NCBI GenBank assembly: GCA_963930775.1
Contig: OZ005701.1
Span: 4,347,669-4,411,668, forward strand
Length of the DNA: 64,000 nucleotides
Direction of reading: 5' to 3'
From: Cliona cf. orientalis
Taxonomy: Eukaryota > Porifera > Demospongiae > Clionaida > Clionaidae
Below are positions 15,124-54,412 of this stretch, one piece after another. The stretch's first letter is position 1, and each line of letters starts with the position of its first letter. The notes below the pieces were generated by a model. That model saw only the letters and a program-made list of their open reading frames with translations, was not told where the DNA came from and did no database searches. Made by a program: the position numbers and the translations under genes.

Positions 15124-15140
15124 AGTCTAAGTTTTTCACT

Positions 15141-15572: not shown

Positions 15573-15597
15573 AGTCTCTAAGTTGTTCATTATTATT

Positions 15598-16063
15598 ACA
15601 TCCCGAGTCCCAATTCACAAAAAACAATTCGGCCGCGAGATGCGCGATGAGTAATTGATGACGAAAGTAATGATGAAATGATGATGAAATTGAAATGACG
15701 AAATTTATGATGAAATTCATGATGTAATTGCTGCGAACACTACTTCAAAATGTTTAGCGCGCATGACAGGGTGTTGGGACCCAGAATTCGAACCTAGCGT
15801 AGAAGACATCGTGGACTATCGATGAGATATGGCGGTTTTCTCAGTTCGCTTTCTTTGGCGAGCTCGCACTCGGGGGGATTTTCCTGTTCAGTCTAGCACA
15901 TGGCAGATGGAGGTCACGTCTGCAACTGAGGCGTACTGTACAGTGAACCCACTATATTGACGACCCTTACCAACGCACCATTTCCACTATGCAGCCACCA
16001 AGGACATGGTCAAGTTTTCATTTCATCATATGTTGGCCAAATTCTGATTGGGACTCGGGATGT
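15598..16063. repeat. Tandem TIR unit 3, divergent right half
   Basis: The left two thirds match units 1 and 2. After the GGAGGTCACGT block the sequence differs, yet it still ends GGGACTCGGGATGT. It lies 180 bp from the stop codon of the semaphorin gene. Confidence 0.85.
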
Positions 16064-16241: not shown

Positions 16242-17090
16242 TCAAGAGTCGTGACCAATTAATGATTTAGTTGACTGCATACTAGCTGTTCTGTCGTATT
16301 CAGGAGGCAATGGCTTGTCTTGAAATTTTTTAGCCTCATTGGAAGGAGATAGAGATTTACACATTATGATTGCAAGTATACTTCCCATCGTAATAGAAGA
16401 AATGACAGCAATTGAGGCAATGACAGCAACAATGATGAGTCCATTACAATCTTCTTCATCACTACTCTGAAGAGCACCAGTCTTGATTGTTCCATTGTAA
16501 TATGAACCCCATTCACCCATTCCAGCATTGGTGTATGCTCGTACACAGATAAGGATAGATTTAAAAAAAGATGTGTCTACAGAAAACGTTTCGTTGCGTT
16601 GAGTACTATTGGTGACGTTACATTCATTTGGTGATGCACACATTCTGTATGCATCATCGCAGTTATTCACATTAGTTACATACCACAAAACCTCATAGTA
16701 TGTCAGAATACCATTAGTCACCACAGGCTCAGTCCACTGAACTGTCAGCTTCTTTTCAGCAAGTTGAAGTTGGACATCACGAGGCCTTGAAGGTATGCCT
16801 TCAAGTGTCAGAAAGGTATATGGCCGACTTATTGGCCCTGTCACATTGCTTGTAACAGCTGTTGCCTGAACAACAAAGCTATAAAGTTTGCCACTACAGA
16901 GATTTTTAAGTGATAGTGTATTGCCACTGTAGTTCACTAGCAAAATATTTCCATCCGGACATGAACTGGTCATTTCTACAGTATATCTAACATTTCCCTG
17001 ATTTTCATTGGTTGGTGGATTCCAAGATACAGTAGCTGAAGAGTTGGTGATATTTGTAGCATTTAAATTTTTAGGGGCTTGTGGAGGATT
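16242..17090 (-). CDS. Semaphorin exon 25 (FN3 8-9, TM helix, tail, stop)
   Basis: Two FN3 domains (NPPQAPKNLNATN and SRPRDVQLQLAEKK), a hydrophobic helix encoded at about 16362-16442 (GLIIVAVIASIAVISSITM...), then a basic and serine-rich tail with KPLPPEYDRT. Stop at 16242-16244. Confidence 0.95.
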   Translation of the reverse strand, partial: NPPQAPKNLNATNITNSSATVSWNPPTNENQGNVRYTVEMTSSCPDGNILLVNYSGNTLSLKNLCSGKLYSFVVQATAVTSNVTGPISRPYTFLTLEGIPSRPRDVQLQLAEKKLTVQWTEPVVTNGILTYYEVLWYVTNVNNCDDAYRMCASPNECNVTNSTQRNETFSVDTSFFKSILICVRAYTNAGMGEWGSYYNGTIKTGALQSSDEEDCNGLIIVAVIASIAVISSITMGSILAIIMCKSLSPSNEAKKFQDKPLPPEYDRTASMQSTKSLIGHDS

Positions 17091-20000
17091 CTACATGGAG
17101 GGGAGAAATTATCAAAAAAAATATCAACCAGTGTACTACATAAAGGATAATAATCAGTGATAAAATAACATGTGTTAAAGTTTTTTGACTGCAACTTTAA
17201 CTATATTATTATGTAACATCATCTATTGGGATCTGCCCACATGATGCCAATTATAATTAGCTCATGAATTTAAATACTAAACCACAAAAATTAATTCTGA
17301 CGTTTTCTTAGACTTTCTATGAAATTAGCACCCCTGAAAATTACCCACCATACGGTATCTTATTGTATATAGTGCTGTATGTGTCTTGATCTGGGTGCCC
17401 ATATCCTCATCACGTACACAATGCACTCTTGCTGTAAAGGCCGGTTCACAGAGACACAAGGTGTTGAGTTGCCTGAATTTTGCGAAATGTAATTAAATAT
17501 TTTGGAACCATCTACCACAAGAATGGAAAGCAAGGGAACACAAGGACAGGATCCAAGTCCCTAGTATTGTGTTGTGAGGCAACGCAATGCATTGTGTAGC
17601 ATCATATTATGAACTGGCCTTATAATTATCTAATTCTGATCAAAATACTTTGACAATAGAAAAACTTACTGTGTTTGTGGTGAATTCAATTCTTGAACAA
17701 TAATTACCACATCCTTGTAAATTACACAATCTCAGATTGAATGTGTATGCAGTATTCCTTTGAACAAGAATAGTTAATGAGTTATTCTCAAAACTGTGTG
17801 TGTCAGTTGACACTATAGTGGTTGAAGTGGTGTCAATAAGTTGCCAGTTGACACTTAGCTCATCCAAAGCGAAAGGAGCTGATACAGTGAAACTGATGGT
17901 AATAGATGAGCCCCGGTTATCCACAAGAAAACAAATAGGAGGAGGAGGAACAGACTGGGGGATAACAGTGCTGACAGCAGCAGACAAATCACTGAGTCCA
18001 ATTTCATTGGCACTCTGAACCCGAGCGGTACACCAGGTGTAGGAACTTCCCAAATTGATGGAGGCGTTAATTAATACAGACGTACCGCTTGTTGTCATGC
18101 TACCATCCATTTCATTACACTTCCAGAAAACTATATAATCAGTGGCACCAGATTGAGCATTCCACTCCAAAGTTACAAAAGTATTTTCTATTAAGAATCG
18201 TACATTGTCTGGTGGACGTGGAAGTGATGGCTTAGTCATTCTATTCACAGTTGTGTCCATACTCATACCAACACTCGAAATGGCTGCCACATCAATTTTA
18301 TACTGAGTACTTGGTGTAAGACTCATATTCATAAAAAAGTATGTCTGGTCCAAAATTGTACTGGCACGTCCAGCAAAAGTGCTGGTATGTTCAGCAATAT
18401 TCACGGAATAACTAAGTCCAGGTCTCGCGTAGTTTAGAGGAGGTTCCCATGTAATAAACAGAGAATGATCACTTACTGCAATGGCACTCAAACTTTGTAC
18501 AGGATCGGGTACAATGTCACTAGTGCGAGCGTACACATTCACTACAGGTCCAGAGTTATTCATCGAGTTGCACAGATTCTCAGAATATACATGAACAAGG
18601 CAGGAAGTAAACGGAATCAGATCATTAGAAGGAATCAGAAAATATAGATTATTGGTTACGTAATATGGCATGGTGCGAGGACCACTCGGAAGGTAGCAAA
18701 TGTAGCTCACCTGCAGAAAAGATAACATGTTCAAGTGATATGTAAACAATAGTTTAGTATTTATAGGTTTCTATAATGTGATTTAGGAGACCGAAGGGCC
18801 ATACATAGGATCCTGAGCAAAGCGAGAATTCTACCGGCCCCGAGGGCTTCTAAACCATGTAGAAACTGAGTAAATAGTGTCTAACTTGCATAGATCCTAG
18901 CAACAATGGCCAAGAGCTTGATATACAAATTAACTCCTGCCTAGCAATGAAAGGCAAAAAGGGTCTTACAAGCTTTTATGGAGGAAGTGGGATCTAATAT
19001 ATAATACAGTAGAATCCATCATTATGTCCCTGCTGGTATTAGGTAAAAATGAGAAGGGTTGTGTATGGAATATTATGATATGTCAGGAAGAAAACTGGTA
19101 ATTACAGACAAACAACAATTGAAATGTCACATGGATGCACAGTCTTGACATTTTCTTGGGCAGTTTGATGGAGAAAACTTGAGAGAAGCAGCAAAATTAG
19201 TTATGGACAGTGCAACACAATGTTATATATCATATCAGTAGTGTACTGACTGAAGCTATATATAGTACATGTAGGCTAGAAGTATAATACTAAAAATTGT
19301 AGTTGATTTTTCTGCATAGAGTCTAAATGTGTGATCATAGAGTAATGTGCCTGTGATAAATATCTTACTATATATCGAATGTCGTTAGGATTTCCATTCA
19401 ATTGTGTAGGTGGCTCCCACGTCACATTTAATGACTGATTATTGACACTAAGATTTTCAACTTCACTGGGAGTACCACAGAGAGTCTGGAATGTCATGGA
19501 ACTAGAATTTCCTTCAGCTGTAGAGAAGGAAGGATCAGAGTATACATACGGATGTTGATATGCATTGGCGTATCTAGCATGGAGCTCAGCTAGGGTGCTG
19601 GAGCACCCCCCTCAGCTCTGACACAACAGCCAGCTCAGTACCTCAGCAGGCGCTGATCCAGAAATTTGCATGGAAGGTGGCTGATGGGGTGGCTACCCAT
19701 AGTAAACTAAACTGGTACAAGGGAGTGGCTGATTAGTAATGGTGGATGTCTCCTATGCTATACCGTAGGTTGGGTTTTGAATGCGAGATTCTTTTGATTG
19801 CGAATTGCGAGTTTTTACACAAGATGCAATCAAAAAAATCGCAGGAAAAAGAATACGCAACGAATAATGTTATACGTGACCTTTTGCATGCATACTTGCT
19901 TGTGATCCCACAGGCATGTATGTACAGCTGTCGATTGTCGAGAATGAGTCTCCTTCGATTCTTCAAGCCAACTGCCAACCTGCCAACACCGTAGCTAACG

Positions 20001-23000
20001 CCAAGCCAAGCGCAACCGTCGCTCGAGCAGTATGGTATTCTTAATAGCCCACCCACATGCAGCCTCACAAGCCACACCTCTATACCTAAGATTGAGGGTG
20101 TGGCTTTCTCGTTTGGCTATTCGCAATCATTAGAATCACAATCTGGCTTATATAGCACCATTCGCAATCGTTTAACTACGCATTCAAAACCCGATCTACA
20201 GTATATTGCATAAAAGAACTAGTGAAGCGGGGTGGCTAGCCACGTCCCTATCCACCCCGCTGGATCAGCCCCTGCTCAGTGACAAATATTGTCAATGATA
20301 ATCGATCACTGGCAGCTCCTACCAACAATAAACTTACTGGCCTCTAACATTCGCTCCTTAAACAGCGTTTTAATTCTCATTGTCACTAGGCCTAAAACTG
20401 CTTTCTTTGTCAGCCAGCTACATGTATCTTCAAGAACGTGTAGTACGTAAATGAGGGGCGTGACTAAAAATTTTGCACGCACACTTTGCGCACGATTGAC
20501 CTACATGTAGCACCTCCCTCCTTCAAATCCTGGATACGCCTGATATGATATGTTATACACTGTAATCTGATTATTTGAGCTCAAGGCAATAGTAAGGACA
20601 TCTATACATGTAGATCTTCTTCTTGTATTCCACATGCAATCCTGTAGTACCATGTATTCTGCCTAGTATGGGCACTGTTATGCTATAAAGATGTGCATAG
20701 GATGTACATATGCACCTGGTATACGTACACATGTACCAATATTCAATTAATGCTACTACTCTTATTTCTATACTTTTGCACTATTTGATTCTTAATTATT
20801 AATATACCGTAGGATATGCGATAATGCCATGAGCCAGACTCCACCCTTGGGGGTGGGATCTGAGCGCGAGACTACCTGCTCTAGTAGAGGCGAGGGCTAT
20901 AAGTCCTTGGTAGATCGAGGTGATTAATGCTGAAAGTGCTCACCAGTAGTTTGTAAATATCGAAGCGTACTTCTCTCTGGCTCTTTCCAGACTCAAATTA
21001 TTGTACTGTTCGGCCAAACAGACTGAGCACTAATTGCTAGCAGATCGATTGCGTGCAATCACCACATGTACATGGCACGCGCCTCGGCCGGCCGCCCTAT
21101 TGTGCAATGTATGTAATGCACATGTTTATTTTGCAATTTTTAATTGCGATTTCGCTAAAATTCGCATAATCGCATAACAAAATACCGCATAACATACCAA
21201 TCCTACGGTAGCTATGCCTATAGCTAGTATGCACAGTCATGACAGTCTACATTCAATATCTCAATCGCAGAGATGGAATCTGAGACCAATTCTCGACCTC
21301 AACAGTGATAAGATCTCAATACTTCAATCACATGCAAAGACCAATTTGACAGTAAAATCTGGAGATTAGTCATGCATGGCATGTTATAAGCATACTACAT
21401 GAACGCAACGCAAACTAGCTATATTTATAAGCGGGATTACGTAAGCCAAGGGAATGCAAGATGTTTGACCAGCCATACTTGTCAGAGAAAGTAACACCCA
21501 GCTTATAAGATATTTGCTGGGTACATGCGTTAGATATTCCAAATTATTATTTTAGTGGCTTTTTAGTATTAGAAGGCTCCATCGAGGTCATAATTATATA
21601 ATAGGTTTCATCATATATAGATACCTTATAACCACAGAAAAGTAAATGTAAATTGCTACTGGGGGATATACATGCTGTTACAATAGAAATAACACAATAC
21701 AAAGCTGACAAGATAGCACTTATAATCACCTGCTGTTGTACAAGCTTTGACCTCCACAGTATACTCGGTATATGGAATCAACCCATCAATTATGTATGAT
21801 GTGTGAGAATAATCCAAGACAGCACAACTCACAACCTACAAAATATTAATTTGCTCTGTAATTCTTTTGTGACTCTAATAACAGTTATTTTTGGAACTCC
21901 GATTAGCAATAGTTAGCAAAAGGTCATCACACGTATGCGATGTGTGCGAATACATTCCTCTAATATTAAGAACAGTTTGAGCATAAGATTTGAAGGATAT
22001 GAAATAGCTCCACATGAATTATTATGGTTTAAGTGTTATATACTGCATTAATTTTGATTGGTCCAACCAGGAACCATGAGTTAATTCTTGATCCGTAACA
22101 ATGAATGTACTGGAGTGCCGAACCCTCACTGCTACATGCATGCATGACTCATATGCGCGTGTACAGGCTCACTGTGTATACCGGCCTGTTCAATATCAGA
22201 ACAGAAGTAACTACATACCCTACACCTGAACAGGGTTCTGGTTCTCTTCAGAGTCAGTGGATCTAGGAATCACAGTAGGGGAAAGGCACCTGGCTATGCT
22301 AATTACTATAATATTATATCTAAACTGAAAGCCTCAGTGACATGCATGTACATGTACCTAAAGTGCATCATGCACTTGAGAGCCACTGCCTGTTAACACT
22401 ATCCACTACTGATCAGTGAAGCACAGAATGACAATCAGTCATGTAGCTGAGGTAGGTGTCATTTAAACACAGACTGGCAACAGCTGCACACTACTATACC
22501 ATGCACTAGTACTGGGCAGGACTTAATCCTTTATGCCGAGCTAGTATACTGGGACTCGAATGCGTGCCTTCTCTCTGATGACCCTCATCATTTAACACAG
22601 GAGGATTCGGATGCTTAATTAAGGTAGCACATTAGGAAGAGAGTACAACTTGCACAGTAGCACTCTACTAGCATTCATCCCAGTGGACCTCACTAATGGA
22701 AGCTACTGATCACTTAGTGTGGTCCTTTCTGCAGCTGTAGTAATTGAAATCAAACTCACTACAGTTTACAAAACTGCTAATAGAATTACAGTGGCCGATC
22801 CAGTGGTTCATTCGAACCCTGCTAACCCCAAGCCTACCTTGAGTAATAATACTGGTACATACGTACCTTCCAATGAAAAAAATTGAGTGAATCTTAACAT
22901 TATTAAATTTTGGGGAATCTTGGCCTACAATCAGGAAACTTACAGGTTCTTTCGTCATCTTTCTAGTGGCTGCATGCAAGTGTGATCGAAAAGGGGCGTG

Positions 23001-24278
23001 GCCAACCCAAATGTGGGCGTGGTCGATGAAACTTTTTCGCACACGAACCCCCCCCCTTCACAATATCCTGCATCCGCCCCTGAATTATCACTAGTAAGTG
23101 ACATAATTAATACAATAGTATTATCCCAGGTAGCTTCAGCACTGTACTCTTGTTAGTACTAGTGTTCATGTACTCTGGATTAATCATAACCATAGTAGGT
23201 GTGATTTATATGGGCATGGAGTGGGTGTATCTTGGGCACGGTCAATGTGTACCTGAAATCTGCCAAAAAAGGTTAGCACGGTATAGTAACAACACCATTC
23301 TATCTCCCGTCCGTACACTTATAGCTATAGGTGCATGCACATGTACATTTCATGATTTATGCATGCATGGGCATCCTTATAATGGTTAACTTCAGCCATA
23401 AGCCAGCTGTGTGATCCGTTTGTATTCGTGCATGCTAATTGATAACCGTCCACTATTGAGTGATTTGGTAGTGATTTTAAAAGTTGTTTGGCCATTTATA
23501 AGCACAATCGGTATCAGTATGCTATAATTTTTTCTTAAGGTACCATTAAATTGCGTGGGCGTGAGGTGGGGGATATGACACCTAAACCACATCAAAGTCA
23601 TTAGTGAGGTGCATGTTGTGTAACCACGCCCTTTTAATTGCACAGGTCTCAGGGGTGTGGCTGCTAGAGCCGGAAGTGTTCATTTAATATCCTCCATGGA
23701 CCGGAAGCCGAGCCGGAAGGGAGGGGCCAGGCCACGCCCAAAACAGCCCCACCCTGTTCCCCAAGGACCACCATTCTCAATCAAGTGCCTACTAACCACC
23801 GGATGTCCACCGGAAGCCCACAATCAATCCCAATTAAAACACACAGCTTCCTCAAGGCCAAAACACACACAAACACTTGGAGGCCGTTCTGCCACACCGC
23901 CCACGCAAGAGCTCACCTCATTTCCTGTGTGGGCGGAGTAACAACACGTCATCGCAACCACATCCGCTTCAAACCATCGTCAGCTTCCGTCCAGCCGTAC
24001 AGGCCCCTCGATCGCACCGCCGTACAGTGCCTCATTAACAGACATGGCCTCACCTTTGACCTCCTGCCACGCCCCCAAAGCATCCTCGCGGGGTTCAAAG
24101 GTCACCACCGCTTCCGGGACACGCCCACCTATCGCCGAGGCCAAGTCCCAGGCGCCGATGTCCAAGCACTGGCCCGTGAAGCCACGCCCAATCGGAAGCA
24201 ATAAAACCTGCATTAACGCACACGCACACACTCCACACAGTGCCAGGAACACGCCCACATGCTTAATTAGGCCTAATA

Positions 24279-24309
<31 letters not shown>

Positions 24310-27300
24310 CAAGGAGACCAGAACACTAAGCAGAAAAAAAAAATGTCCAAAACCACCACATAGTTGAGCTGGATGCTTAGTAGAGCCATACAATGCAAGC
24401 AGGCACCAATTTTGACCAAAACAGGTAAAGGTCGTCACGTTTGTGTGCGCGCGCCTAACGGGGATTCCCCGTTTTTCACGTAGCGCGTGGGCGGAAAACA
24501 TTGCAAACGCATGGCTTCCCTGTACAAACATATGGGAAAACTTCAAAGGGCCGTAACTTCAATTCAAAGGCGTGAATCAAAATTCTTTCAGGTCAAATCT
24601 CTAGTTTCGACCCATTCTGCGTGCCCATGTAAAAATTATGTCCCCAAGTACTCCCAAACCCCCCATGAATTAGATTATTTAATTATTTATTTATTTAATT
24701 ATTTAAATTTGCTTTTTTTTTCTACTTAGTGTTTAATAAGTCGTTGCGGTTAATAGTTAAGCAAGAATGCTTTGATCTCGCTTTGATGTGGGCAATTACC
24801 GGCCTTTTCTTCAGGGGCCACTTCCGGTCGCTAATTACACGCGCATAATCATCCCTGGCCGATTCTGGACACGCCCACCTTCGACCAAAAGCACTCGTAT
24901 GGCCTCTTCGGCCACGCCCCTTCACGATTCGCTAATTGAATTAGCCATTCCTGACGCTCACGCCCACGCAATTAAATGGTACCTTAATTAGCTCAAAAGT
25001 AAGCTCTGTGTGGGATGAGGGGCTCCAATTTTAGGACTATCCCGGACGATAGCTGATACTTGTGTATAAAGGTGAAATGGGATATGTTGTAATTTGTAAT
25101 TAATATGCACCCTCTCGTTAAGAAACTTACCACAGATCCATCAAGAGATATCGTATAGCCGCTAATCATCCCATTAGTTGAGGTGGGAGGAGTCCACGAT
25201 GCAGTTACTGACACATTCTTTGGCATAAGCTGTAGGTTTCCAACTGGTCCAGGTTTGTCCTCAAGCAAAGTAACACTCATGGATACAGGTGTACACAAGC
25301 TAGGAATGCTGTTGAATACTGTCACCCTACAATATAATATACATGTACTTTATTTGCTTGATCAGATACCGCAGCTACTATATATTTTATTTCATTGCCC
25401 GAGTTTGTGTGGCATTTATTCGAGAGTGACGTTTACTAATATCAGTAGCTTCCAGGGGAGCAACCCATTAGAAAAACCACTGCTAAACTAGAAGATCCTA
25501 ACCCCTTTGCTGATACAGGAGGAGGTTAGAACTTGTTTCTAGAAGACTGCTAAGTATTTATCGTTACTTTTCTTTACCTGCCATCGAGAATGAGTCATAA
25601 GGCATGACGTGCTACTTGAACCTGAGTAGGTGTGGTGTGCCAGGCTACTATTCGAGAGTGGAGATTCTTTTGTTTAGAGGTGCAGGGACCATCTGAGTGC
25701 AACGACTAATCGAGAGCTGTGTCTGACCGAGCTAATATGGTATATGTAACAACAGGCGGGCCCATATATTATCACAGCAATATAGCTAAGAGTGGACTTA
25801 TATAAATTTGATAGCTTGGTGATCTGCTGTCATAACCACGTGCTACAATAAATCAATCTGCCAATATACTATCGTAATATATGGTGTGCATTCGATATAA
25901 ATAAGAATATTGTTACACAAATTTCCAGCACAAAAGTTTACAAACGAAATTAACACTACATCACATCTTACATGTACGCCTCTGAAGATCCTGGGGTAAG
26001 ATTCTCAACTTTTAGACAATTGTCATCTGTGAAATTTTTTGTCCTTCTTCCATTAAGATCCACCTAGACATACACACATGTATGCAACAGATTTATATCC
26101 AGAGCTCTCTCTCTACAGCACTTACATGTACATGTTGTATATTATGTACCACGTGTGCACTGCATGCATAGTGTCGCATAGCATGCATACATGTGCTTTT
26201 ACAAGCCTCACATATACTATTTACGCCTATATCATATCATTATTTAGTTCGAGCATGCACAGTGGTAAAAGCATATGGCTTTACTATGTGTAGTAAATAC
26301 GCCATATTTCTCTCCCCTAGGAAAATCTTGTACGGAGATATATATAATATATTATTATATTTATGTATGACCCTATTTACCTCCCCCTGGCTTAGCTTAT
26401 AATTAGCTAACTGCAGGCCACAATATGTATATTGTCTGATTTATGTAGTCTATCCAAAACGCTAGTACTAGCTATAATAATACCATGTATAGTGTTCACA
26501 GAGATTGCTAAGTACTAGCTTCTAACACTTGATAGCCCCTGGCCATGGTGTCTCATTTCTACTGACCTCTGGTGACACGTACATGTATCTGCTTAAAATT
26601 AATGCTAATTATTTGCTGGCTGCAGGCATCGCAAAAGTAGCACACAATATATTAATGCAGTGGCGGATCCAGGATTTCTAGAAGAGGGGTTGTAGTTATA
26701 CTCTTTATAAGCCACGCCCACTTTGGGGCAAAACCACGCCCGTTTCAATCGTTTTTGAGACAAACAGCCCTAGCAGTCCAATCGATCTGTTTTTGAACGA
26801 ATTTTCTTCAAAGTTGAGGCATAGCAGCAGTTTTCTTAGTTTTATAGCCAGAAAGCGGGGTTCAATTTAGTTTATCATCAGTACTTCTTAGTACTGTATA
26901 GCGGGTAATTTTCGTGGGGGGCTAATTTTCGTTATTTTCTAACAGTCACGAAATTTACACCCCATGAAAATTTGCCACAGTAGGTAAAGGTCGTCTGGTA
27001 ACATTGCCGCGAGTGTGCATGCGATTGTGGTCAAAACGTATGGCATCTGCCTCCAATCTGTTGAGTCTCTGCCGGAGTGCGATAGTATGAGACTGGAAAA
27101 TTTCTGTTTCTGTCACTTCGATTCGGTGACAGTCATCGATAGGTTTGCTTGATGATGGTGAATGGGGCGTGGCAAGTGCAATTGTCAAGAGCCACGAAAT
27201 TTAGACCCACGAAAATTAAATTTGGAGGCTAAATCTTACTTTTCACAAAAATTAATACGCTCGAAAATTTCCCGCTATATGGACTATTAGATGCAGCTCA

Positions 27301-42300: not shown

Positions 42301-45300
42301 AGGTAAAGAGCAAAATGCCCCGCATTCCTCGTGTTTTAATAAAAGAATTACCTCAAGGACAGTTTTATTTGTGGGTACTAAATTTAGCAATTTGCCTATA
42401 TTCCGCTAAAAATTGTACCCGCGAATATTAATATTTTTAAACAAATAGAATGTTAATTTTGAAAAAAAGTGCTAAAGTGAATACCCGCTAAATGCGCTAT
42501 TTGTGAAATCCGCTAAAATATGTACCCAAGGTATTTGGTATCTCTAATAATATTATTTGACTTAATACTCTCCTCTTTTACTGAATGATGAAAATTAGTT
42601 CCTACAATAATTAAAGCATGCATGGTTATCACAAGTACAGCACATTTATAGATAGAATGTTGAATGCCCGCCCCTCAAAGCTGAAACAAAACAATTTGCA
42701 CCAGATTTGCTCACAATCATGCTTGCACATACATGTACATATAATCACCATCAGATTCACATAATATTATAGATCACACAATCACATCTAGTTTGAGCAC
42801 TCACAGTTCAACCAGTATAGGTCATCCTTTGCACCATACAGACTACGTACGGTGAGACTGCCAACAGTAGGCGAGTAAGTCACTGAATGAAAGGTGATGT
42901 TGAGATCTCGTCCTAATTGACGATTGCCACGGTAATAACCAGATGAAAAGAAATTGTCTAGAGAAAAGTATTCACTATATTATATATAATATACACAATG
43001 TATATAGCACATTAAATTTTATGTACATGTAGCATACATGTATGTCTTTAGTAATTATTTATCTAATCTGCATGTAATATGTAGCTGCCTTCTTCTAATT
43101 TGAAAAAAATTACATGATCAGAAAATGGAATTTGGTAACATACCAGTTGAATCATTAAGGAATTCACCAAACCAGTTGAATTCAGGGTACGATGATATCA
43201 AACTGTCTGAGGCAGAAACAGTAGAAGATACAGGTACTGTAGGACTAATAATATTCCCGCTAACCTGCAAATAATATTAGCAAATAGTGTACATGTACTT
43301 TGGCATGACATCGTATTATAAAACATGTCAGTTATAGATACCGCATACTTTCCAATATAGGCGCCGCTAAAAAATAATTATAGATCGCAAAGGCGCCTTC
43401 ACTTTTGCCCTGAGGATGACTAGAGCATCTAGTCGAAACATCGGCAAGTTTTATCGAGCAGTTAAGTTGTCCGCAAAGAATCTTCGTTTTATTCATAGAA
43501 CTGAAAAATTCGCCTTTTACACCGCTGGCTTATTTAAATTTATCATTGGATTACTCAAATCTATCGAAACTCTTTGGTGGTTGATCAGTTCCCACCCTTG
43601 CTACTCTCCTCTTTCTATCGTACACCAAACTGCTGTATACAAACCATCATCACATCACTAGAAATATAGTGCGAGGAGGTCAAAGGTGCCTAAATTATAA
43701 GGATTGAGGCACCTAAAAGTTGCAATTACATGTACATGTACATGTAGAATGTTTTGTCAGAGCGAAAACACTAACACTAACTGATCAGTACTATTTAGTG
43801 GCAGTGAATATGTCAGCTAGTGGCTAAAACAATAAAGTGATGGTTCTAGTTTCACTTCTTTTTGGCAGTTTCACTCTGATCATCGAATCATCAGAACGGT
43901 TGTCTCTAAGTTCTCATATAAATGTAAGAGACAGATTAGTTTGACAAGGTATCGTGATATTGCATGTGGTAATATGTTCCAATTAAAATAGGTGCTACCC
44001 AAAAATAATTGATGTCTGGAAAGGTGCCTTAAATTTAGAACCGAAAAAATCGTGCAGGTCTCAAAGGGCAGATGGCGCCTATATTAGAACATATATTATG
44101 GTACATTATGTACATGTACTTCTTTCTATCATGGTTGTAATATTCTGACTAATCAGATTTCTCAAATGGAGGTTGATAAATCATTTAATTATCAAACCTA
44201 CAAGATATTTATTTATCAAACTACATGTACAAGTTATTGCTGAGTGGGCACGTACTTGAAAGGCAATTAAGTGGGTGGAGTAATTGGATGCAAGGTCAGC
44301 ATTTTTCTAATTAAGTGCTGCATGCATGGCTGCTTCAATGCTGCAAGAAGAACCGTCATCTTTAGTGATCGAGATATCGCTGTAGTAGATGACGAAGGCC
44401 GTACGTGCTCACTGTATTGCAGGTCAGATTCTGGGAGCCTCGAAGGAAGGAAACTGCTTCAATCGTTGATGACTATCGCGGTCGCTCGATCACAGCTGCA
44501 TTCGAGCAGCTCTAGTGCTCTCCATTGATACAGAACTGAATGGCAAAACAAACGATAGCGTATAGGTACTCTAGCTAGCTACAGTATTAAATACTACTAA
44601 GCATATAGTTTGCCATGATATACACCTCGGTTGCGGTAGCTACGGTGATTTGTGGGCCCTTGGTATGATAGATGCCACCTCGGTGTATAACCTACATGTA
44701 TACACATACATGTACATCATTCATATTGGATGAAATTACTTTTCTGTCATGAGGTATATAGGTATGAGTAACCTTCGGAACAATTTCGAGGGATGAAAGT
44801 CAGCATATGATGAAATTGTATGATAATTGTTATCCAGCAACTTATCCTTCTTTTTCTACATGTAGCTACCTCCCCTTTACCAATCATGTTAATGGCTATT
44901 CAGCTATTAAACTATATATATATTACACCATAACTTCGGTAATTCATCTTATCAAAACTCATAATAGGGTGGCATGGAGGTGCCATCTCACCTCATGTAC
45001 ATGTACATGTAGCCCCAATATATCATGAGATTATTTTGCTGGCCGGCCCATAATCCATACCTGGATTTGCGTACTAGCCGGTACTAGATACTACATTGTA
45101 TATAATATATGGCCTGAAATTTTTGAAGGATCCAATTTTTGCGGAAGGTCCATCTTCAAAGATTTCGTGATCTATGGATGGCTGTTCCAGAGTTGCTCCA
45201 CTCATAACATCAGATACTGCATACGTGCCATGGTTTACATGTAAATCTTGTTAGAACCGGCCTGAAAAGCCGGCAAGTGATCGTCGATGGTACTTGTACT

Positions 45301-48300
45301 CAGCGGAGATCGAGAAATGGCACGAGAGTCACATATTATGATTGAGGCTAGAGCTAGGAGCTCAGTTACTGATCATGAGATACTATGTATGGAAAAAAAT
45401 ATAATTTCTGAATCAATTTTGAAAAGCACGCGCTTTTCTGGTAAAGGTCGTCAATCACTCCATATATACCGTATTCGCTCGATCAGACGCCGCTCTCGAT
45501 TAGTCGCCGCTCTCGAATAGTCGCCGCACCTCCGGAAGTGCTGAACGAAATAGTCGCCGCTCTCGAATAGTAGCCGCGCCACGCCTACTATTCGAGAACA
45601 CCAGCACATAGACGTGTCTCGCGACTCATTTTCGATGGCAGGTACACGAGAACCAGTCTAGAGCAAGTTTTTATCTTCTTCTACATCAGCAAAAGGGCCA
45701 GAATCTCCTAGATCAGTTCTGTCAATCGACAGTTTCTCTAAGGATTGCCTCTCTGGCAGCTACTGGTATTAATAAACGCCGCTCTCGAATAGTCGCCGCT
45801 CTCGAATAAACGCCGCATAAACTCGGGCGATGAAATAAATAGTAGCCGCGGCGTCTGATCGAGCGAATACGGTACATGCACACGTTATGAGAATTCGTAA
45901 AATGCTAATTTCATTGGATCATACATTGTATTCGATTAACTACGGTAGCTGCTCTGAAATTACGTGCATGGTTAATTCAGCTTCTACTCTTGATCTATAT
46001 GCCTTTATGCGCAAGGAAGTTGATACTCCTAAATAGGATATTGCTTAAGCAGGTGCCTGTCTGTCCATGTATGTCCACGTGTCTGCTGCCACGCTAGCTA
46101 GCTGCTACATGTACATGTACATGTACATAACACTTTGAAAACAGATGGATCCTAAAGATTACTTTAATTATATACACGGTATAAAAACCACATAAAAGAT
46201 CGGATCATATTTATTATCATGTTGGATCAAGTCTAGCCATTTTGAATGGTACAGGTACTAGGACTATGTCTTAATTTTATTGTGAGTAGTGAAATTACAT
46301 GTACATGTACATGTATATGTACTGTGCAAACTACTTTGAAATATGCATGCATATATGTAACAGTAGCGAGAGATGTACTCACATTCAGTGTTCTGCACTG
46401 AGGAGAAATGCCTCCTTGTGTTCCACATACAAGTATGATTGACTCCTGAGATGGAATTTTCTTGTAGACACGGATGTGATTTCTGCAAGCACTCTCCTAT
46501 AGCAAATTGAGAATAAAATATCACTAATGATTTAAAATACATGCATGTACTAAGTATGTTTGACGGCGATGCGCATGCTCTCACTCTGCTCAAACATCAA
46601 ATCTATCAGATTATTGACAGGCCTATCATAACAGAGAACAGACCTCACCTCTCACGGCCTGTTCAGTGAAGCCTAGGGACTTGATATTTCTAAAGAATTA
46701 ATATATTATCGTACTTTCATTTGATTTTAAACAAATCTTGAACTTCATGATCAGAGCTCTGACAAAGTCCCTTCACTGCCATTTGACAACTGCCTTGGTG
46801 TCAATTATTTTTCAAAAACTTGCTAAACATGAGTCGAGGTCGATCCTTCTCATAGCTTCTTTATTATATATTCTTCTGTCAAATGTTGCTCACTTCTGAT
46901 AGCTAAATTGGTCAAAACAGGCATCTTTAGCCCGAATTGATTTTCAGGCATATTTCTGAGGTCAATTGAGGCTCATGTTTATGGACAAATAAGCAGACAA
47001 AAACTAATATGAATTCCCAGCTTTACATGTACTGGGAGAATAATGCATGCGCACAGTGTGTACCGGCTAGGCCCTTTCTCCTCCTCCTTAAAGGGCCTAG
47101 GTACGAGGCTAAGCGACTGCTACTGGTACATGTAACTCCACCAGTTGCCGTGTCTGCAAATCAGCAGAAAAGATCGAAACTAGGAGCTTTTTGCGCGCTT
47201 GGAGGTATTTGCCTATTGTCTGTACTCGTTGAGCAAAGAGTGAAGGCGAAAGGCCCATGAGAGGCACTAAAGCTCTGATCAGGAAGAACTTGATTATCTG
47301 GAGCTAGCCCAGTAAGTCGCCTACAGGGTATGCTCGAAGCTACTATAACTATTGCGAGTTCTTACATGCAAGCCTTATTTCGGGATTTAAGGCTATCACT
47401 TGCTATCGTTGAAGGGCAGATAATAGTCAAGTAACACTATAGAGAAGCTTCTGGGCTCAAATGCAAAATTAATGTTATTAAAAAAGCAAAAATAAAATTC
47501 AAATCCGTTTTCTCAATAATTTATATCCGAAATAATGTTAGCTTTCTATCCGGGACTGCCATAATACATGTACATGTAGTATAAATATTATAATAATATT
47601 ATTGTATTAAACCTATATAAATGGAAGGATGAAGTAGGGATGTCAGGGTCAAAAAGTACATAAACAAGATTTGTAGGGATAATCACATCCACTATACATC
47701 CCTATGCTTGCTTTTCTCGTGCACTAACTTGTTCGTTAAGCACTCTTGACTTGCATGTGGAAGATATTACTGTTTTTTCACCCCTCAAAAAGCAAGTGTA
47801 TGGATGTACATGTATAGTGGATGTGATTATCCCTACAAATCTTGAAGTGACATCGTTCTCAGTTGCTCTGCATGAATAAACGAAGATTCTTTTCGGACAA
47901 CTTAACTGTTCGGTAAAACTTGCCGACGTTTCGACTAGATGCTCTAGTCATCCTCAGGGCAAAAGTGAAGCGAGGTGCGAACAACAGGCTTAATCGAGAC
48001 GAGGTGCGAACAACAGGCTTAATCGAGACGTAGCCCCCGATTAAGCCTGTCGTTTATTCCTACAAATCTTGTTTGCTGGGGTCTTCTTACACATCGAGAA
48101 GACCCCAGCAAACAACAGGCTTAATCGAGACGGGGGCTACGAGCTACCAGGCTGTTGGATCGCAACGATGAAGAAACTAGGGGGCGGGGGCAACCGCGCT
48201 AGCGCTAATCGCGCCAGCGCTCCACCCTCTGCACCCAGCCGCATGGGCGCGCGAGCGCAGTAGCCACGCCTAAAAGAGCACCACCCTTTTCGCACCTCGC

Positions 48301-51300
48301 TTCACTTTTGCCCTGAGGATGACTAGAGCATCTAGTCGAAACGTCGGCAAGTTTTACCGAACAGTTAAGTTGTCCGAAAAGAATCTTCGTTTATTCCTAC
48401 AAATCTTGTTTATGTACGTTTTGATCCTGCCATCCCTACTTCATCCTTCAATTTTATATTGTTTTCATACTTGTTTCTGTTTTTTTTATTGTTCTCAGTA
48501 TAATTCATCTTACATGGTTTGCTATCAATATTCCAGTGTAGAAGATGGAAGATGAGGCTGACAAAAACGCAGCGTTAGGCGGCCAATATCTATGTAGCGA
48601 TGAGACCCTTCCGTTTAGGGAGAAAACCAATTAGTTCTAAACTTTATTGTTGGCAGCAGCTAATCTGTACGTTAGCATTCCTCAAGCTTTGCACAGGCTT
48701 CATATCCATGATCTATCCAGCAGAGCACTATAGCACTGCACATGCTAGTGAGTAGCTCACTTATGCCTAGGCACCTTACTGTTCCTCGAGCCTTGCGCTT
48801 TCATATCCTTGATCGATCCAGCAGAGCACTAGAACACTAGCACTGCATGCATGCATTAGGGCTAGGGTATCGCCGAGGGCCATGCAGGGCCCTGTCACAT
48901 GACTTCACCATGGCAACATATTCTGAGCATGCGCATTATATCACAAAATGGCGTATCAGATACACCCAGTTGTCAACGTACCGTACACACCCACTATTAT
49001 GTAACTGTCAAGATAATGCAAAATTAATAGCATATCACTGCACTGCGCGCTACTAAATGGAATGGATTATACTTAAACTAAGATGAGAGGTCAAGGTAAT
49101 CTTGAGCTAGCCCTGGAAACTAGAGAGAAAGAATGAAAGATTGACAAATGGCCATTTTTTGAACATCTGGTTCTGGCATGTACAATTGATTTGATGAATG
49201 ATCTTGGTCTTGTTAGATACGTAGATAATTTGCTGGAGATTCGACCTGATTTTCACACTTAGAAATTTCACAGATATTTGGGTATTTGTAATGTATTACA
49301 TATATCCAGGCCATCCCTACTTGTAGAGTCTACCGACTCTATGATAATAGTATGTACAATGTACATGTATTATTATACACTGTATTACGTGTTGTACATT
49401 GTATATTATGTACATGTACATGTACCTCAATTCCTGCCTGTGTGCAAAGCATGAAGTTGTTGGTAGTAGTATTCCAATGAAAGCCATGTTGACACTCTAA
49501 TTCTCGATTCAGAAGAAATAACTGATCACTAATTCATATTCATAAGAAATTATACAAATATTAAGAGAATGGCATATTAATAAGTGATATTATATAGTTG
49601 CTTACGCAGCACCGGTGAGAATCATTTGTGGGATGGCATCAAAATTTAGTTCATTTCCAAAGTAACTATCACCATTGCGTAGAGAACACATTGCAGCATT
49701 GGAGTTATAGTCAGGAAATACTCTTCCTCTGCCCGTTTCTGGAACACACATACATGTATATATATATTATTACATACATATTATACAAACCGTAAAAAAT
49801 ACGTAAGCATAATACGTACATGTACATTGTAATACAGTTATGTTTTAAGCTATGCTTATGCTTGCTACTACTGCATTACTACACTTGATGTACCCATGCA
49901 GATTTATAAACAGCCTCAGAGTAGATGGTGTAAGATGTTTTCAGTGCGTCCAAGCTGTTCTCCAGATAAATATTCCCATTCAGTACATGCATGTACTTTT
50001 CAGTATTCTACAAGTATATATGTTTGATGTCACAATCATGGGATAATGTGGCTAATATATGCACGAGTCACTCACACACAGAGAAAATTTAAACAGTATC
50101 ATCTATGTCAACCATTAGTACAGTACACATACAGCAGCACGAACTTTGAACCTATTACTTCGTAGACCACACCCCTCGATGCAGCTGCTCGACTTCACCA
50201 CTGCAATGGCGATGTTCTTGCTATGCTCAAATGTTGAATCTACCATCACACTATGACAAAGAATAGGCCTCATCTCTCGCTTCACTCAGGGCTCAGTGGT
50301 ACGTGGCCTGTGTGGCTGAGCAGGCCTCTTGAAACGTGTGGTACTTCGTGCCGTTTGTTCGTTGAGAACGCATCTCTATGGCCACCCTTGTTTGTGCACA
50401 CGGCACTGTAATTTTGCCCAACTGTGGGCCTTCTGAACGCATCTTTTGTGCTCTCCAGGTTAAGATACGGACTATTTAATAGTCCGTATCTTAACCTGGA
50501 GGAATATAAATATATAAGAAAATTGTCACTCTGAAAATATTATATTTGTTGTATATAGTACAAGAAAGAGCTCCAATGTACTGTATATGATGTACATGTA
50601 TGTATTTATGGTCAGAATTCAGTAAACATATTAACAAATCTGTATACTTGGAGGCACTGTGTTTTGAGTAGTATAGAAAACAGATAACTATCTACTAACT
50701 GTAGAGCACATACCCCGCGCGCACATTGTGCAATCTATAGATTTACTTTCGGTGCATGGCTATAATTTTGTAAACTTCAGAGAAATAGAAATGCTGCTTA
50801 GCCCACTGGGGGTTCCGGTGACACTTGAAAAAGCACTGTCTGCACCCAGACCTAACCCAAACTAGGAACATATGAATTTCTACCTATATTTGTTGTAACA
50901 ATAGTAGTATAGATGTCTTACATTATGATTGGTTACAGATTTCAGTCACTGTAGACATCACGAGCATTATTTAGAACATCAACAATCTTTACCAGTCATA
51001 TGCTTGGCCATTTAGTTGTGCGCATGAGCAGAAAGCATAATTGGTATGCATATGCATGATGGGCACTGTCGATAGGCGTGGCTACGGTGGCCAACAAAAA
51101 GGCACTATTTGTGACACTCGTGGACCGTATCCCTTGATTTGACGCACACTGAAGCCAGTATTTCGCTGAACTCGATTGATTCGTTGTGATTACGAGTCGC
51201 TTAGACGCCTATATCTCGAGATATGGCGATTTTTGTGCTAACGACAACGACAACACGACCGATTACTTTACCCCCTTGCGCATGCGCGCGGGGTAAATAT

Positions 51301-54300: not shown

Positions 54301-54412
54301 TACCGTTAAAGCTGACTTCAACCGTTTGAGTCCGGAATTGCTGATATCCAGACATCACCAGATGACTGGGGAGGACCACCAGTACGAAAATCGCTGCCAC
54401 TGGGACATTCAT
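16242..54412 (-). CDS. Sema-FN transmembrane semaphorin (Sema-PSI-FN3 repeats-TM)
   Basis: A type I surface protein, probably a contact or guidance cue or receptor; partners are not known from the sequence. 25 exons total 4608 nt and keep one frame at every join (1535 residues). In order: signal peptide (1 to about 21), Sema beta-propeller (about 45-535) with CRNHIRVYKK, LVCGTQGG, YQFYFVFLRE, STYMKARIFC and DILFLGTG blocks, PSI (about 538-580) with RDPYCIWN, about nine FN3 domains (about 592-1455), a helix at 1470-1496, and a tail of 39 residues with KPLPPEYD. There is no plexin RasGAP, kinase or Ig domain. The choanoflagellate class called Sema-FN has this layout. Exons 24-25 are large, the rest small; introns range from 56 bp to about 6.1 kb and carry most of the repeats. 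No cDNA supports the joins, but phase agreement is complete. Confidence 0.92.
17670..18710 (-). CDS. Semaphorin exon 24 (end of FN3 4, domains 5-7)
   Basis: A 347-codon uninterrupted exon. Domain starts are visible at VPDPVQSLSAIAV, PRPPDNVRFLIEN and VPPPPICFLVDN, with WEPP and YKIDVAAISSVG hallmarks. Donor GTAAGT. Confidence 0.95.
19369..19517 (-). CDS. Semaphorin exon 23 (FN3 domain 4)
   Basis: CGTPSEVENLSVNNQSLNVT, then WEPPTQLNGNPNDIRYI, a clear FN3 start. Confidence 0.92.
19563..20542. repeat. 0.98 kb element, 5 bp duplication ATATG
   Basis: Ends CATTGGCGTATC and GATACGCCTG, flanked by ATATG at 19558-19562 and 20543-20547. A CCGTAGG-ended element is nested inside. It lies in the intron between exons 22 and 23. 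Confidence 0.75.
19763..20201. repeat. CCGTAGGTTGGG TIR element, nested
   Basis: CCGTAGGTTGGGTTTTGAATG at the left, CATTCAAAACCCGATCTACAG at the right, TA on both sides. Confidence 0.78.
20807..21208. repeat. CCGTAGGATATGCG TIR element
   Basis: Ends CCGTAGGATATGCG and CCAATCCTACGG with flanking TA. The interior includes A+T-rich GCATAATCGCATAA repeats. Confidence 0.75.
21730..21835 (-). CDS. Semaphorin exon 22 (FN3 domain 3, second half)
   Basis: IDGLIPYTEYTVEVKACTTA is the L-x-P-x-TxYxVxVxAxT pattern of FN3. Confidence 0.92.
23535..24987. repeat. 1.45 kb TTAAGGTACC TIR element with nested insertion
   Basis: TTAAGGTACCATTAAATTGCG at the left is inverted at the right end. The left half is CpG-rich and keeps open frames on both strands (up to 188 codons), but none resembles a transposase. 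A second element (24323-24733) and a T29 run lie within it. Confidence 0.7.
24323..24733. repeat. ACACTAAGCAGAAA TIR element
   Basis: ACACTAAGCAGAAAAAAA at the left, TTTTTTTTCTACTTAGTGT at the right, about 410 bp. Related ends occur near 1830, 2035 and 10790. Confidence 0.72.
25131..25326 (-). CDS. Semaphorin exon 21 (FN3 domain 3, first half)
   Basis: KPGPVGNLQLMP...VTASWTPPTSTNG is a standard FN3 A-C strand pattern; donor GTAAGT. Confidence 0.92.
25367..25745. repeat. Old degenerate ATTCGAGAG element
   Basis: Scattered ATTCGAGAGTG and CGAGAGCTG motifs match the interior of the intact element at 45469-45872 in the opposite orientation. It starts about 40 bp upstream of the exon 21 acceptor. 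Confidence 0.6.
25972..26063 (-). CDS. Semaphorin exon 20 (FN3-like domain 2)
   Basis: VDLNGRRTKNFTDDNCLKVE, then NLTPGSSEAY, the E-F strand pattern of FN3. It joins exon 19 in phase across a 3.9 kb repeat-filled intron. Confidence 0.88.
26894..27283. repeat. GTATAGCGGGTAATTTTCGTG TIR element
   Basis: The left end carries TGTATAGCGGGTAATTTTCG and the right end AAATTTCCCGCTATATGG; the ends are near-complementary. Confidence 0.7.
27329..27676. repeat. hAT-like element, 5 bp duplication GGAGG
   Basis: CAGTGGCGGATCCAGG...AATCCGCCACTG flanked by GGAGG (27324-27328 and 27677-27681). The interior GGGGGGTTCCATTTAGCC block is shared with 2525-2920, 26830-26890 and, inverted, 52600-52690. Confidence 0.85.
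28236..29885. repeat. Composite repeat copy A, 1.65 kb
   Basis: Runs from the TAGAGTCGGTAGACTC end to the CTTCATCCTTCAATTTTATA end. The inverted counterpart is 47620-49345. It includes a foldback unit at about 29580-29880 and a nested element at 28604-29032. It lies in the intron between exons 19 and 20. Confidence 0.82.
28604..29032. repeat. CCGTAGACTCTGG element nested in copy A, TA duplication
   Basis: CCGTAGACTCTGGTTAATAAG at the left and CTTAATAACCAGAGTTTACGG at the right, TA on each side. Copy B lacks it: on its reverse strand the site reads TATCTGATACGCC. Confidence 0.87.
29917..30029 (-). CDS. Semaphorin exon 19 (FN3-like domain 2)
   Basis: PPVCISEQDIIHFIGQRDVT to ENYRFE, with a strong donor GTGAGT. 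Confidence 0.87.
30090..30206 (-). CDS. Semaphorin exon 18 (FN3-like domain 1, second half)
   Basis: Contains SIGLHSYICTVEARPAGGSS and ends TITPP, the typical closing strand of an FN3 fold. Confidence 0.87.
30801..30823 (+). repeat. G23 tract
   Basis: An uninterrupted run of 23 G. Similar runs are at 10819-10838 and 51995-52017; C-runs at 14506-14522 and 34465-34482. Confidence 0.95.
31009..31547. repeat. GGGGTCCGCGACGA TIR element
   Basis: AGGGGTCCGCGACGATCTG near the left, TTTCGTTGCGGACCCCT at the right. The interior is filled with TGATTTCT and GATTTC repeats. Confidence 0.65.
32125..32618. repeat. CCGTATAGCGGGTAAA TIR element
   Basis: CCGTATAGCGGGTAAATTTG at the left and AAAGTTTCCCGCTATACAG at the right, flanked by TA. 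Confidence 0.78.
36140..36315. repeat. CCGTAGTGTCCCGGG TIR element, uninterrupted
   Basis: CCGTAGTGTCCCGGGTAAGC at the left and TGCCTGGGACACTACAG at the right. It supplies the empty site for the insertion at 52559-52889. Confidence 0.8.
36342..36512 (-). CDS. Semaphorin exon 17 (FN3-like domain 1)
   Basis: APVCEVTVRAISADTITCEA begins the first divergent FN3-like domain. Followed by the largest intron, about 6.1 kb. Confidence 0.88.
36577..36593 (-). CDS. Semaphorin exon 16, 17 nt microexon
   Basis: Reads G-VPECL between GGCAG and GTATGT. Chosen over the 21 nt alternative (acceptor at ATACAG) because only this length keeps the downstream frame open. Confidence 0.7.
36690..36806 (-). CDS. Semaphorin exon 15 (PSI domain)
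   Basis: NECIGSRDPYCIWNNRTS is a textbook PSI core with the RDPYCxW motif and conserved cysteines. Confidence 0.95.
37481..38112. repeat. GGGGTAAAGTAATCGG repeat, second full copy
   Basis: Same strand as 6580-7178 and opposite to 50702-51297. It fills much of the intron between exons 14 and 15. Confidence 0.82.
38259..38401 (-). CDS. Semaphorin exon 14 (Sema end, PSI start)
   Basis: Contains ELRIVSDDASNERYIYTA and VYRLPLQRC, the final propeller strand, then the first PSI cysteines (CSRLQGC). Confidence 0.93.
39626..39711 (-). CDS. Semaphorin exon 13 (Sema)
   Basis: Completes GTG-DTGKIMKIVF and ends VVAEEIT, as expected after the LFLGT motif. Donor GTATTC. Confidence 0.9.
40584..40675 (-). 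CDS. Semaphorin exon 12 (Sema)
   Basis: Contains QDILFLGTG, the xDVLFLGTDxG motif near the end of Sema domains. Confidence 0.92.
40851..40951 (-). CDS. Semaphorin exon 11 (Sema)
   Basis: CRDGGRTFDFNNVLSVQDVS between ATACAG and GTAAGC; the preceding intron is only 56 bp. Confidence 0.88.
41008..41170 (-). CDS. Semaphorin exon 10 (Sema)
   Basis: PPGTAICAYRAD matches the AICxF motif; then FNRGIFDIFRED. The donor is an unusually weak GTTCAT. Confidence 0.88.
41232..41316 (-). CDS. Semaphorin exon 9 (Sema)
   Basis: 85 nt between GCATGCAG and GTAGGC, containing WVEMMYGAFSGP, a propeller strand; in phase on both sides. Confidence 0.88.
41391..41517 (-). CDS. Semaphorin exon 8 (Sema)
   Basis: NDPGINGSGHFSTYMKARIF followed by C matches the ND-x-GG...TF-KARLxC motif of Sema domains. 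Confidence 0.93.
42108..42217 (-). CDS. Semaphorin exon 7 (Sema, FFFRE motif)
   Basis: Contains YQFYFVFLREV, the counterpart of the YFFFRE motif; donor GTAACG. Confidence 0.93.
42805..42957 (-). CDS. Semaphorin exon 6 (Sema)
   Basis: Contains SVTYSPTVGSLTVRSLYGAK and DDLYWLN, equivalent to the LYSGT and WLNDP region of semaphorins. Confidence 0.88.
43144..43264 (-). CDS. Semaphorin exon 5 (Sema)
   Basis: Reads from VSGNIISPTVPVSS to YPEFNWFGEFLNDS. Low similarity, but phase 0 in, GT-AG bounded and in frame with both neighbours. Confidence 0.8.
43371..44090. repeat. Older repeat with inserted GATGACTAGAGC segment
   Basis: GGCGCC-ended repeat; 43402-43495 matches the ends of the 47876-48400 element (GGATGACTAGAGCATCTAGT). 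The outer part matches the flanks of 8634-8850. Confidence 0.6.
43728..43746. repeat. (ACATGT)n palindromic run
   Basis: ACATGTACATGTACATGTA. Comparable runs are at 45000-45010, 46107-46128, 46297-46316 and 49405-49425; single TACATGTACA units recur throughout the window. Confidence 0.85.
45469..45872. repeat. CCGTATTCGCTCGATC TIR element
   Basis: CCGTATTCGCTCGATCAGAC at the left and GTCTGATCGAGCGAATACGG at the right, TA on both sides; the interior repeats GCCGCTCTCGAATAGTC. Confidence 0.85.
46383..46496 (-). CDS. Semaphorin exon 4 (Sema hallmark)
   Basis: Carries ESACRNHIRVYKKIP and LVCGTQGGISPQC, the classic C-x-NxIRV...CGTxxxxPxC signature of Sema domains. Confidence 0.95.
47620..49345. 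repeat. Composite repeat copy B, inverted relative to copy A
   Basis: Matches 28236-29885 in the opposite orientation, lacks the 28604-29032 insertion, and carries its own insertion at 47876-48400. It lies in the intron between exons 3 and 4. Confidence 0.82.
47876..48400. repeat. Long-TIR element nested in copy B
   Basis: About 100 bp ends (AACGAAGATTCTTTTCGGAC ... inverted), with GGATGACTAGAGCATCTAGT near the inner edge and a GGCTTAATCGAGACG repeat within. Confidence 0.75.
49426..49528 (-). CDS. Semaphorin exon 3 (Sema)
   Basis: Joins as A-DQLFLLNRELECQHGFHW, matching the LYVGA-x-LF-L region of Sema domains; ends QAGIE before GTACAT. Confidence 0.88.
49606..49738 (-). CDS. Semaphorin exon 2 (Sema start)
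   Basis: Reads TGRGRVFPDYNSNAAMC, then FDAIPQMILTGA, the first propeller strands. Acceptor TTCCAG, donor GTAAGC. Confidence 0.88.
50453..50501. repeat. Near-perfect 24 bp-arm palindrome
   Basis: CTCCAGGTTAAGATACGGAC is mirrored to TATCTTAACCTGGAG with a one-base centre. Lies in semaphorin intron 1. Confidence 0.85.
50702..51297. repeat. GGGGTAAAGTAATCGG repeat, inverted copy
   Basis: Begins at the AGAGCACATACCCCGC end and ends GCGCATGCGCGCGGGGTA, opposite to the copies at 6580 and 37481. Lies in semaphorin intron 1. Confidence 0.82.
51480..51790. repeat. Repeat shared, inverted, with 655-910
   Basis: GGCATGCTGAACAGAAAATA and the CTTTTTGAGCAATTCG segment match 655-910 in the opposite orientation. 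Confidence 0.7.
52559..52889. repeat. hAT-like element, 5 bp duplication CTTGA
   Basis: CAGTGGCGGATCCAGG...ATCTGCCACTG inserted in a GGGCGCTTACCCGGG repeat. The intact sister at 36140-36315 reads CCCCTTGAAATG, so CTTGA (52554-52558 and 52890-52894) was duplicated. Confidence 0.87.
54304..54412 (-). CDS. Semaphorin exon 1: start and signal peptide
   Basis: The ATG at 54412 opens MNVPVAAIFVLVVLPSHLVM, a clear signal peptide, followed by a short mature segment. Donor GTAAGG; ends in phase 1. Confidence 0.88.

Follow-up and report, generated by a model that had tools for sequence, protein, structure and literature searches.

Semaphorin-plexin signaling predates neurons, and the layout of the first semaphorin is an open question. 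The name Sema-FN comes from choanoflagellate semaphorins that carry five to seven FNIII domains and a SEA domain (Junqueira Alves et al. 2019, PMC6374515, cited here and below for the parts of its text that were available). According to the same source, Amphimedon queenslandica encodes a Sema-FN1 with five detected FNIII domains, or up to nine judged by spacing, along with three semaphorins of the Sema-PSI type, two plexins of full length, and four whose intracellular parts are shortened; the Trichoplax Sema-FN1 has one FNIII. The semaphorins of A. queenslandica all fall in one clade of the published tree, and the authors considered Sema-FN to be possibly among the first semaphorins (PMC6374515). 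An earlier sequence-only reading of the DNA analyzed here had attributed the layout to choanoflagellates, which agrees with this source but is incomplete, as A. queenslandica and Trichoplax have a Sema-FN1 too. The layout is already known in sponges, and the predicted gene described below is a second sponge Sema-FN gene, with its introns mapped.

Gene model and its surroundings

The gene lies on the minus strand of the window, by which we mean the whole 64,000-nucleotide stretch of DNA that was analyzed. It runs from a start at 54412 to a stop at 16242 in one continuous frame, exactly as the sequence-only reading had proposed. A model assembled manually, guided by candidate exons, phase, and homology, comprises 26 exons, 4,668 bases, and 1,555 residues (Table 1); the multi-exon gene claimed earlier was thus recovered, but its counts of 25 exons and 1535 residues were not. 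From its N terminus the encoded protein has a signal peptide, the Sema and PSI domains, some nine stalk units that each span about 95 residues, one TM helix, and a short tail. All 25 introns are GT-AG with agreeing phases, which the model was built to require, and the frameshift at a junction that had been raised as a possible objection does not occur in it. The only stop of the joined frame is the terminal one; the other two forward frames hold 90 and 152 stops, and the model frame scores best for 25 of the 26 exons.

Table 1. Exons of the semaphorin gene, in window positions
Exon	Position	Strand	Content	Observations
1	54304..54412	-	start ATG and signal peptide	hydrophobic start, donor GTAAGG
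2	49606..49738	-	Sema domain start	phase 1 in, 2 out
3	49426..49528	-	Sema (ADQLFLLN)	weakest acceptor of the model; junction common to C19a and C19b
4	46383..46496	-	Sema (CRNHIRV, CGT)	codon/splice search, model, PDB sequence match
5	43144..43264	-	Sema	codon/splice search, model
6	42805..42957	-	Sema	codon/splice search, model
7	42108..42217	-	Sema (FLRE)	codon/splice search, model
8	42018..42050	-	Sema (IIYSRVARICR)	33-base exon; similar 33-base exon in C19b
9	41391..41517	-	Sema (KARIFC)	codon/splice search, model
10	41232..41316	-	Sema	codon/splice search, model
11	41008..41170	-	Sema	weakest donor of the model; at FVE/CRD, the residues match those of unsplit paralogue exons
12	40851..40951	-	Sema	codon/splice search, model
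13	40584..40675	-	Sema (ILFLGT)	model
14	39626..39711	-	Sema	model
15	38259..38401	-	Sema end	model
16	36690..36806	-	PSI domain (SRDPYCIW)	Pfam PSI 22.3 bits, cut-off 23.1
17	36577..36620	-	linker exon (QNIHTG)	followed by phase-1 intron; similar exon in three paralogues
18	36342..36512	-	stalk unit 1, first part	phase continuity; no fn3 match
19	30090..30206	-	stalk unit 1, second part	phase continuous over 6.1-kb intron
20	29917..30029	-	stalk unit 2	model; no fn3 match
21	25972..26063	-	stalk unit 2	codon/splice search, model
22	25131..25326	-	unit 2 end, FN3 unit 3 start	unit 3 fn3 E = 2.5e-13
23	21730..21835	-	FN3 unit 3	codon/splice search, model, fn3 match
24	19369..19517	-	unit 3 end, FN3 unit 4 start	unit 4 weak fn3, E = 0.0095
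25	17670..18710	-	remainder of unit 4, units 5-7	fn3 E: unit 5 7.2e-10, unit 6 0.023, unit 7 none
26	16242..17090	-	FN3 units 8 and 9, TM helix, tail with PPEY, stop	fn3 E: unit 8 5.4e-12, unit 9 7e-07

A codon and splice-site search returned the same start and stop at intron penalties of 6 and 8; because the training of its codon table drew on a paralogue and on parts of the exons in question, its result is not independent of the claim. At the lowest penalty (6) it found 21 exons, of which 15 were identical to the final model, two had one end in common with it, and four were absent from it. At the highest penalty (10) it retained three exons only, the first at 25280. The model is weakest at two splice sites, the exon 3 acceptor and the exon 11 donor. 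At the former, an intron stands at the same place in both of the paralogues scored (C19a and C19b, described below); at the latter, both paralogues read straight across with matching residues. The intron that separates exons 11 and 12 measures 56 bases (40952-41007), and C19a, C19b, and a third paralogue, C1, have one unsplit exon there. As a prediction from DNA sequence, the gene is real, and the earlier observation of it is confirmed.

Apart from the exon frames, ten open frames of the flanks and introns were compared with Pfam and had no match at E ≤ 0.01; exons 4 and 14 are overlapped by two of these, which read in a different frame or on the other strand. A tandem repeat (14821-15919; period 445, 2.4 copies) lies just past the 3' end of the gene. 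Similar repeat-like stretches were seen by eye in two introns, at about 47600-48600 and 29520-29880, with shared phrases such as 'aagatttgtagg' and 'catccctacttcatcctt'. The first intron holds, also by eye, a hairpin-like inverted repeat around 'taagatacggactattaaatagtccgtatctta' (about 50453-50497).

The earlier reading had called the source a probable sponge, and the genome supports this. Three cathepsin-like sites on contig C12 (3668001-3676000) read CGASYAF, with Ser replacing the catalytic Cys, which we take to be the mark of a silicatein; such silicatein-type sites fit a demosponge. A cathepsin search of the genome gave 116 matches, and 12 loci were examined; the motif was recognized in 11, and its catalytic Cys was the normal one in each. 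Five more cathepsin sites (L040, L041) also have the normal catalytic Cys.

Domain content of the predicted protein

Pfam profiles run on the joined protein, a check proposed with the original observation, gave matches beyond chance for both Sema (N-terminal; 41.4 bits, cut-off 23.7, E = 1.9e-10) and fn3 (E = 1.3e-42, in five stretches). The PSI domain follows Sema directly and scores slightly below its cut-off (E = 1.7e-4); ECIGSRDPYCIW of this region aligns with PDB semaphorins. Among the paralogues, PSI is above the cut-off in C19a and C1 and below it in C19b (20.9). Every hallmark named earlier (CRNHIRV, CGT, FLRE, KARIFC, and RDPYCIW) is present. A PDB sequence search with the 616-residue head gave 36 matches, the top 13 of which (E 1e-33 to 4.5e-13) comprise 11 named semaphorin chains and two fly clone names that are presumably semaphorins as well. 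Fly Semaphorin-1A was matched at E = 1e-33 and Semaphorin 6D at E = 1.3e-24. The best plexin, plexin-A1 (5e-11), came after these 13, and Semaphorin-7A lower still (1.6e-8).

Plexins and MET likewise begin with Sema and PSI, a point in favor of a plexin or MET-like receptor. The other observations speak against one: Ras-GAP, kinase, and IPT are absent among the Pfam matches at E ≤ 1, the 38-residue tail is too short for a GAP or kinase domain, and the best semaphorins rank far above the plexins in the PDB search. A plexin or MET identity was rejected on the Pfam matches and the PDB ranking and is hardly credible. In the joined protein, no IPT, SEA, thrombospondin, GAP, or kinase family was matched at E ≤ 1. 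The claimed Sema-PSI-FN3-TM semaphorin is borne out by Sema and fn3 above their cut-offs, PSI near its own, and semaphorins at the top of the PDB list.

The stalk is less uniform than the claim of about nine FN3 domains implied. When the nine units were given singly to Pfam, four (3, 5, 8, and 9) exceeded the fn3 cut-off, two (4 and 6) matched weakly, and three (1, 2, and 7) had no match at E ≤ 1. Because units 1, 2, and 7 lack an fn3 match, the figure of about nine rests on spacing for these three. Against 2,000 shuffles each, and with a local fn3 profile built from six units of the window, they ranked 883rd, 206th, and 112th, and by sequence they are not clearly FN3. Unit 8 was also matched by a phosphatase N-terminal family, at 30.6 bits against a family cut-off of 30, and other Pfam matches on the FN3 units, all below cut-off, were to DSCAM-type, Ig_RIMBP2, tissue-factor, and other families. 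An AlphaFold prediction for exon 25 alone (units 4b-7) had a mean pLDDT of 38 and was uninformative.

One TM helix and a short tail, both claimed earlier, are present. When 19-residue windows were ranked by hydrophobicity, 11 of the top 12 mapped to one TM stretch and the other to the signal peptide; the TM hydropathy peak lies at about residues 1488-1517, and 12 residues separate the TM from the last stalk unit. The 38-residue tail has no Pfam match and contains PPEY, which we take to be a motif of the WW-binding type. The protein is quite likely to be a Sema-FN semaphorin that spans the membrane once, from what is probably a demosponge, a judgment made jointly with the history of head and stalk put forward below.

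Paralogues with other stalks

The genome (216.8 Mb, 149 contigs) was searched with the window head and with the Pfam Sema profile. It holds at least five semaphorin loci besides the window gene, and contig C15 has a weak fragment that contains stops. One of the five, C16 (C16:5640k), is intronless, with one open frame of 891 codons that contains Sema and PSI and, judged by eye, encodes a TM helix as well. When it was compared with the window by low-stringency tblastn, the CRNHIRV exon was matched at E = 7e-4 and other exons only as weaker pieces. Another locus, C13:8328k, was seen in pieces and is a distant or plain semaphorin. The remaining three are close paralogues of the window gene: C19a and C19b stand head to head on contig C19 (276001-316000), and C1 lies on the contig of that name (4704001-4724000). 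They were modeled by a program of the same type, which additionally rewarded similarity to the window protein, and their exon ends were corrected by hand, which makes these models not independent of the window model.

In the head, identity to the window gene is 52% for C19b, 48% for C19a, and 45% for C1, and C19a and C1 are 73% identical to each other. Junctions were scored from J2 to J17 in C19a and C19b, with J1 and C1 outside the comparison; C19b has 14 of the 16 in common with the window gene and C19a 12 (within one aligned column, same phase). J11 is absent from both and J7 from C19a; J5 is in phase and four columns off in both, and J14 of C19a is in phase and 17 columns off over an alignment gap. 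By the author's reading, C19b has one GC-AG intron. In all four genes a small linker exon follows PSI, encoding QNIHTG in the window gene, C19a, and C1 and QNVHTD in C19b, and in all four this exon is followed by a phase-1 intron.

Beyond this intron the genes differ. The C19b stalk has ten Calx-beta stretches (Pfam E = 3.5e-176, a value obtained with the program's own model, which still lacked the linker and included two doubtful exons that were later dropped) and, by eye, a TM segment. C19a has one Calx-beta-like unit, which scored 15.9 bits with a profile from seven C19b units, against a highest score of 11.2 among 2,000 shuffles; Pfam found no Calx-beta match in this stalk, and its Calx-beta nature is suggestive only. 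A TM segment, again seen by eye, follows it. In C1, whose model has no settled 3' end, the stalk begins with an Ig domain (I-set E = 5.7e-9) on an exon that is phase 1 at both ends. An FN3-like segment after this domain ranked 246th against shuffles with the local fn3 profile, and we do not claim FN3 in C1. The C1 head carries an in-frame TGA, and the locus may be a pseudogene or contain an assembly error. On the same strand 3' of C1 are frames with a weak LDLa match, Calx-beta just below cut-off, and a hormone-receptor domain above cut-off. Because these are preceded by what appears by eye to be a new start with a signal peptide, they were assigned to another gene, possibly adhesion-GPCR-like. 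The firmest contrast is that between FN3 in the window gene and Calx-beta in C19b; the C19a and C1 stalks are weaker evidence.

The paralogues also bear on whether the window model joins two genes, a Sema-PSI gene and a separate FN3-TM gene, through annotation. Such a fusion would find its place in the 6.1-kb intron between exons 18 and 19, but this intron sits within presumed stalk unit 1, which itself has no fn3 match. Upstream of it, exons 16, 17, and 18 stand within 465 bases with agreeing phases; the linker exon and the phase-1 junction are kept in three paralogues, which have short introns to their own stalks; and A. queenslandica Sema-FN1 has the same domain order (PMC6374515, available text). 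A two-gene split was rejected on phase, on the position of the long intron inside unit 1, and on the linker exons common to the paralogues, and we regard it as very improbable. Head and stalk as one gene is supported because the paralogues share the head, the linker, and the phase-1 junction.

An unrooted tree was built from eight Sema heads trimmed by eye, with C1 kept despite its in-frame stop. With 100/100 support, it set the four intron-rich sponge genes apart from C16 and the three bilaterian semaphorins. The tree program flagged C16 as a long branch; without it the four sponge genes stood against the bilaterians at 100/100, which leaves two groups and adds little. C19a and C1 were sisters (100/100), yet their stalks are Calx-beta-like and Ig, respectively. 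For the place of the window gene among C19a, C19b, and C1, the tree gives no resolution.

Origin of the layout and comparison with known semaphorins

Stalks appear to have been exchanged within this sponge lineage; they look exchangeable because, past a phase-1 intron in the same position, three paralogues have stalks of other kinds. Under the phase-1 rule of module shuffling, stalk differences at a phase-1 intron are expected, and those seen here match that pattern. We think it fairly probable that a single Sema-PSI-linker cassette underwent duplication and that its copies came to be attached, at a shared phase-1 intron, to FN3, Calx-beta, and Ig stalks, at least three kinds in all. The head would then be a cassette present at least four times in the genome, each copy joined at that intron, and the window copy would be the one that received FN3. 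On this history Sema-Calx-beta would be an undescribed class of semaphorin, sponges would have an Ig-bearing semaphorin gene (perhaps decayed), and the sponge Sema-FN stalk may be a product of domain exchange and not a relic. In passages of four open-licence PMC papers that mention both semaphorin and Calx-beta (PMC8242945, PMC11788884, PMC5460417, and PMC4030831), the two words stand far from each other in meaning and no Sema-Calx-beta protein is described; two further such papers, PMC12482511 and PMC4417276, concern integrin beta 4 by their titles, and descriptions elsewhere may exist.

Alternatively, the layout may go back without change to the ancestor shared by choanoflagellates and animals, the other sponge stalks being later replacements. 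That choanoflagellate semaphorins too are Sema-PSI-FNIII-TM, that A. queenslandica and Trichoplax are reported to have Sema-FN as well, and that the 2019 authors suggest it may be one of the first semaphorins all accord with such retention, but the same paper reports a SEA domain in the choanoflagellate proteins, which has no match in the window protein, and places the A. queenslandica semaphorins in one clade without singling out Sema-FN1 as the oldest (PMC6374515, available text). Close paralogues that differ in stalk, including a pair that is 73% identical and of which one member (C1) has an in-frame stop, also speak against it, and we hold retention to be possible but somewhat doubtful. 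The sequence-only reading had concluded that the gene keeps the pre-metazoan layout; given the lack of a SEA match and three paralogues with other stalks after the same phase-1 intron, this is not established. Because close paralogues differ in stalk at one phase-1 intron, the sponge Sema-FN cannot be read as a relic by its layout alone. One head on several stalks at one intron is a warning against inferring ancestry from stalk type.

The gene may act as its family does. Because plexin cytoplasmic-domain exons stand at two places on contig C4, a plexin receptor is probably present in the genome. The stalk would hold the Sema head off the membrane, and the head would bind plexin on a neighboring cell; the plexin GAP domain might then lower Rap signaling and loosen adhesion, the semaphorin itself being predicted to bring no enzyme. 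For early plexins, lowered Rap-dependent adhesion via the GAP domain was proposed in 2019 (PMC6374515, available text). PPEY in the tail could recruit a WW-domain protein and so lead to removal from the surface. According to the available text of PMC8242945, LPS treatment of the sponge Halichondria panicea was followed at 6 h by a rise in both a Sema-domain gene and a plexin-group receptor. The paralogue set would offer natural ligands for asking whether the stalk matters in plexin binding.

Fly Sema1a and vertebrate Sema6 resemble the window gene in carrying Sema and PSI on a transmembrane protein, and they are among its best sequence matches; in the three bilaterian rows compared, heads are 27-31% identical to the window head in aligned columns. 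To our knowledge, these bilaterian transmembrane semaphorins have no FN3 stalk. Choanoflagellate Sema-FN1 (Monosiga brevicollis and Salpingoeca rosetta), as described in the available text of PMC6374515, shares Sema, PSI, an FNIII stalk, and a TM with the window gene but also carries SEA, whereas the window protein has no SEA match at E ≤ 1 and only 12 residues between its last stalk unit and the TM. A. queenslandica Sema-FN1, likened by its published description in the same text, resembles the window gene in having Sema, PSI, an FNIII stalk of five detected and about nine possible units, and a TM.
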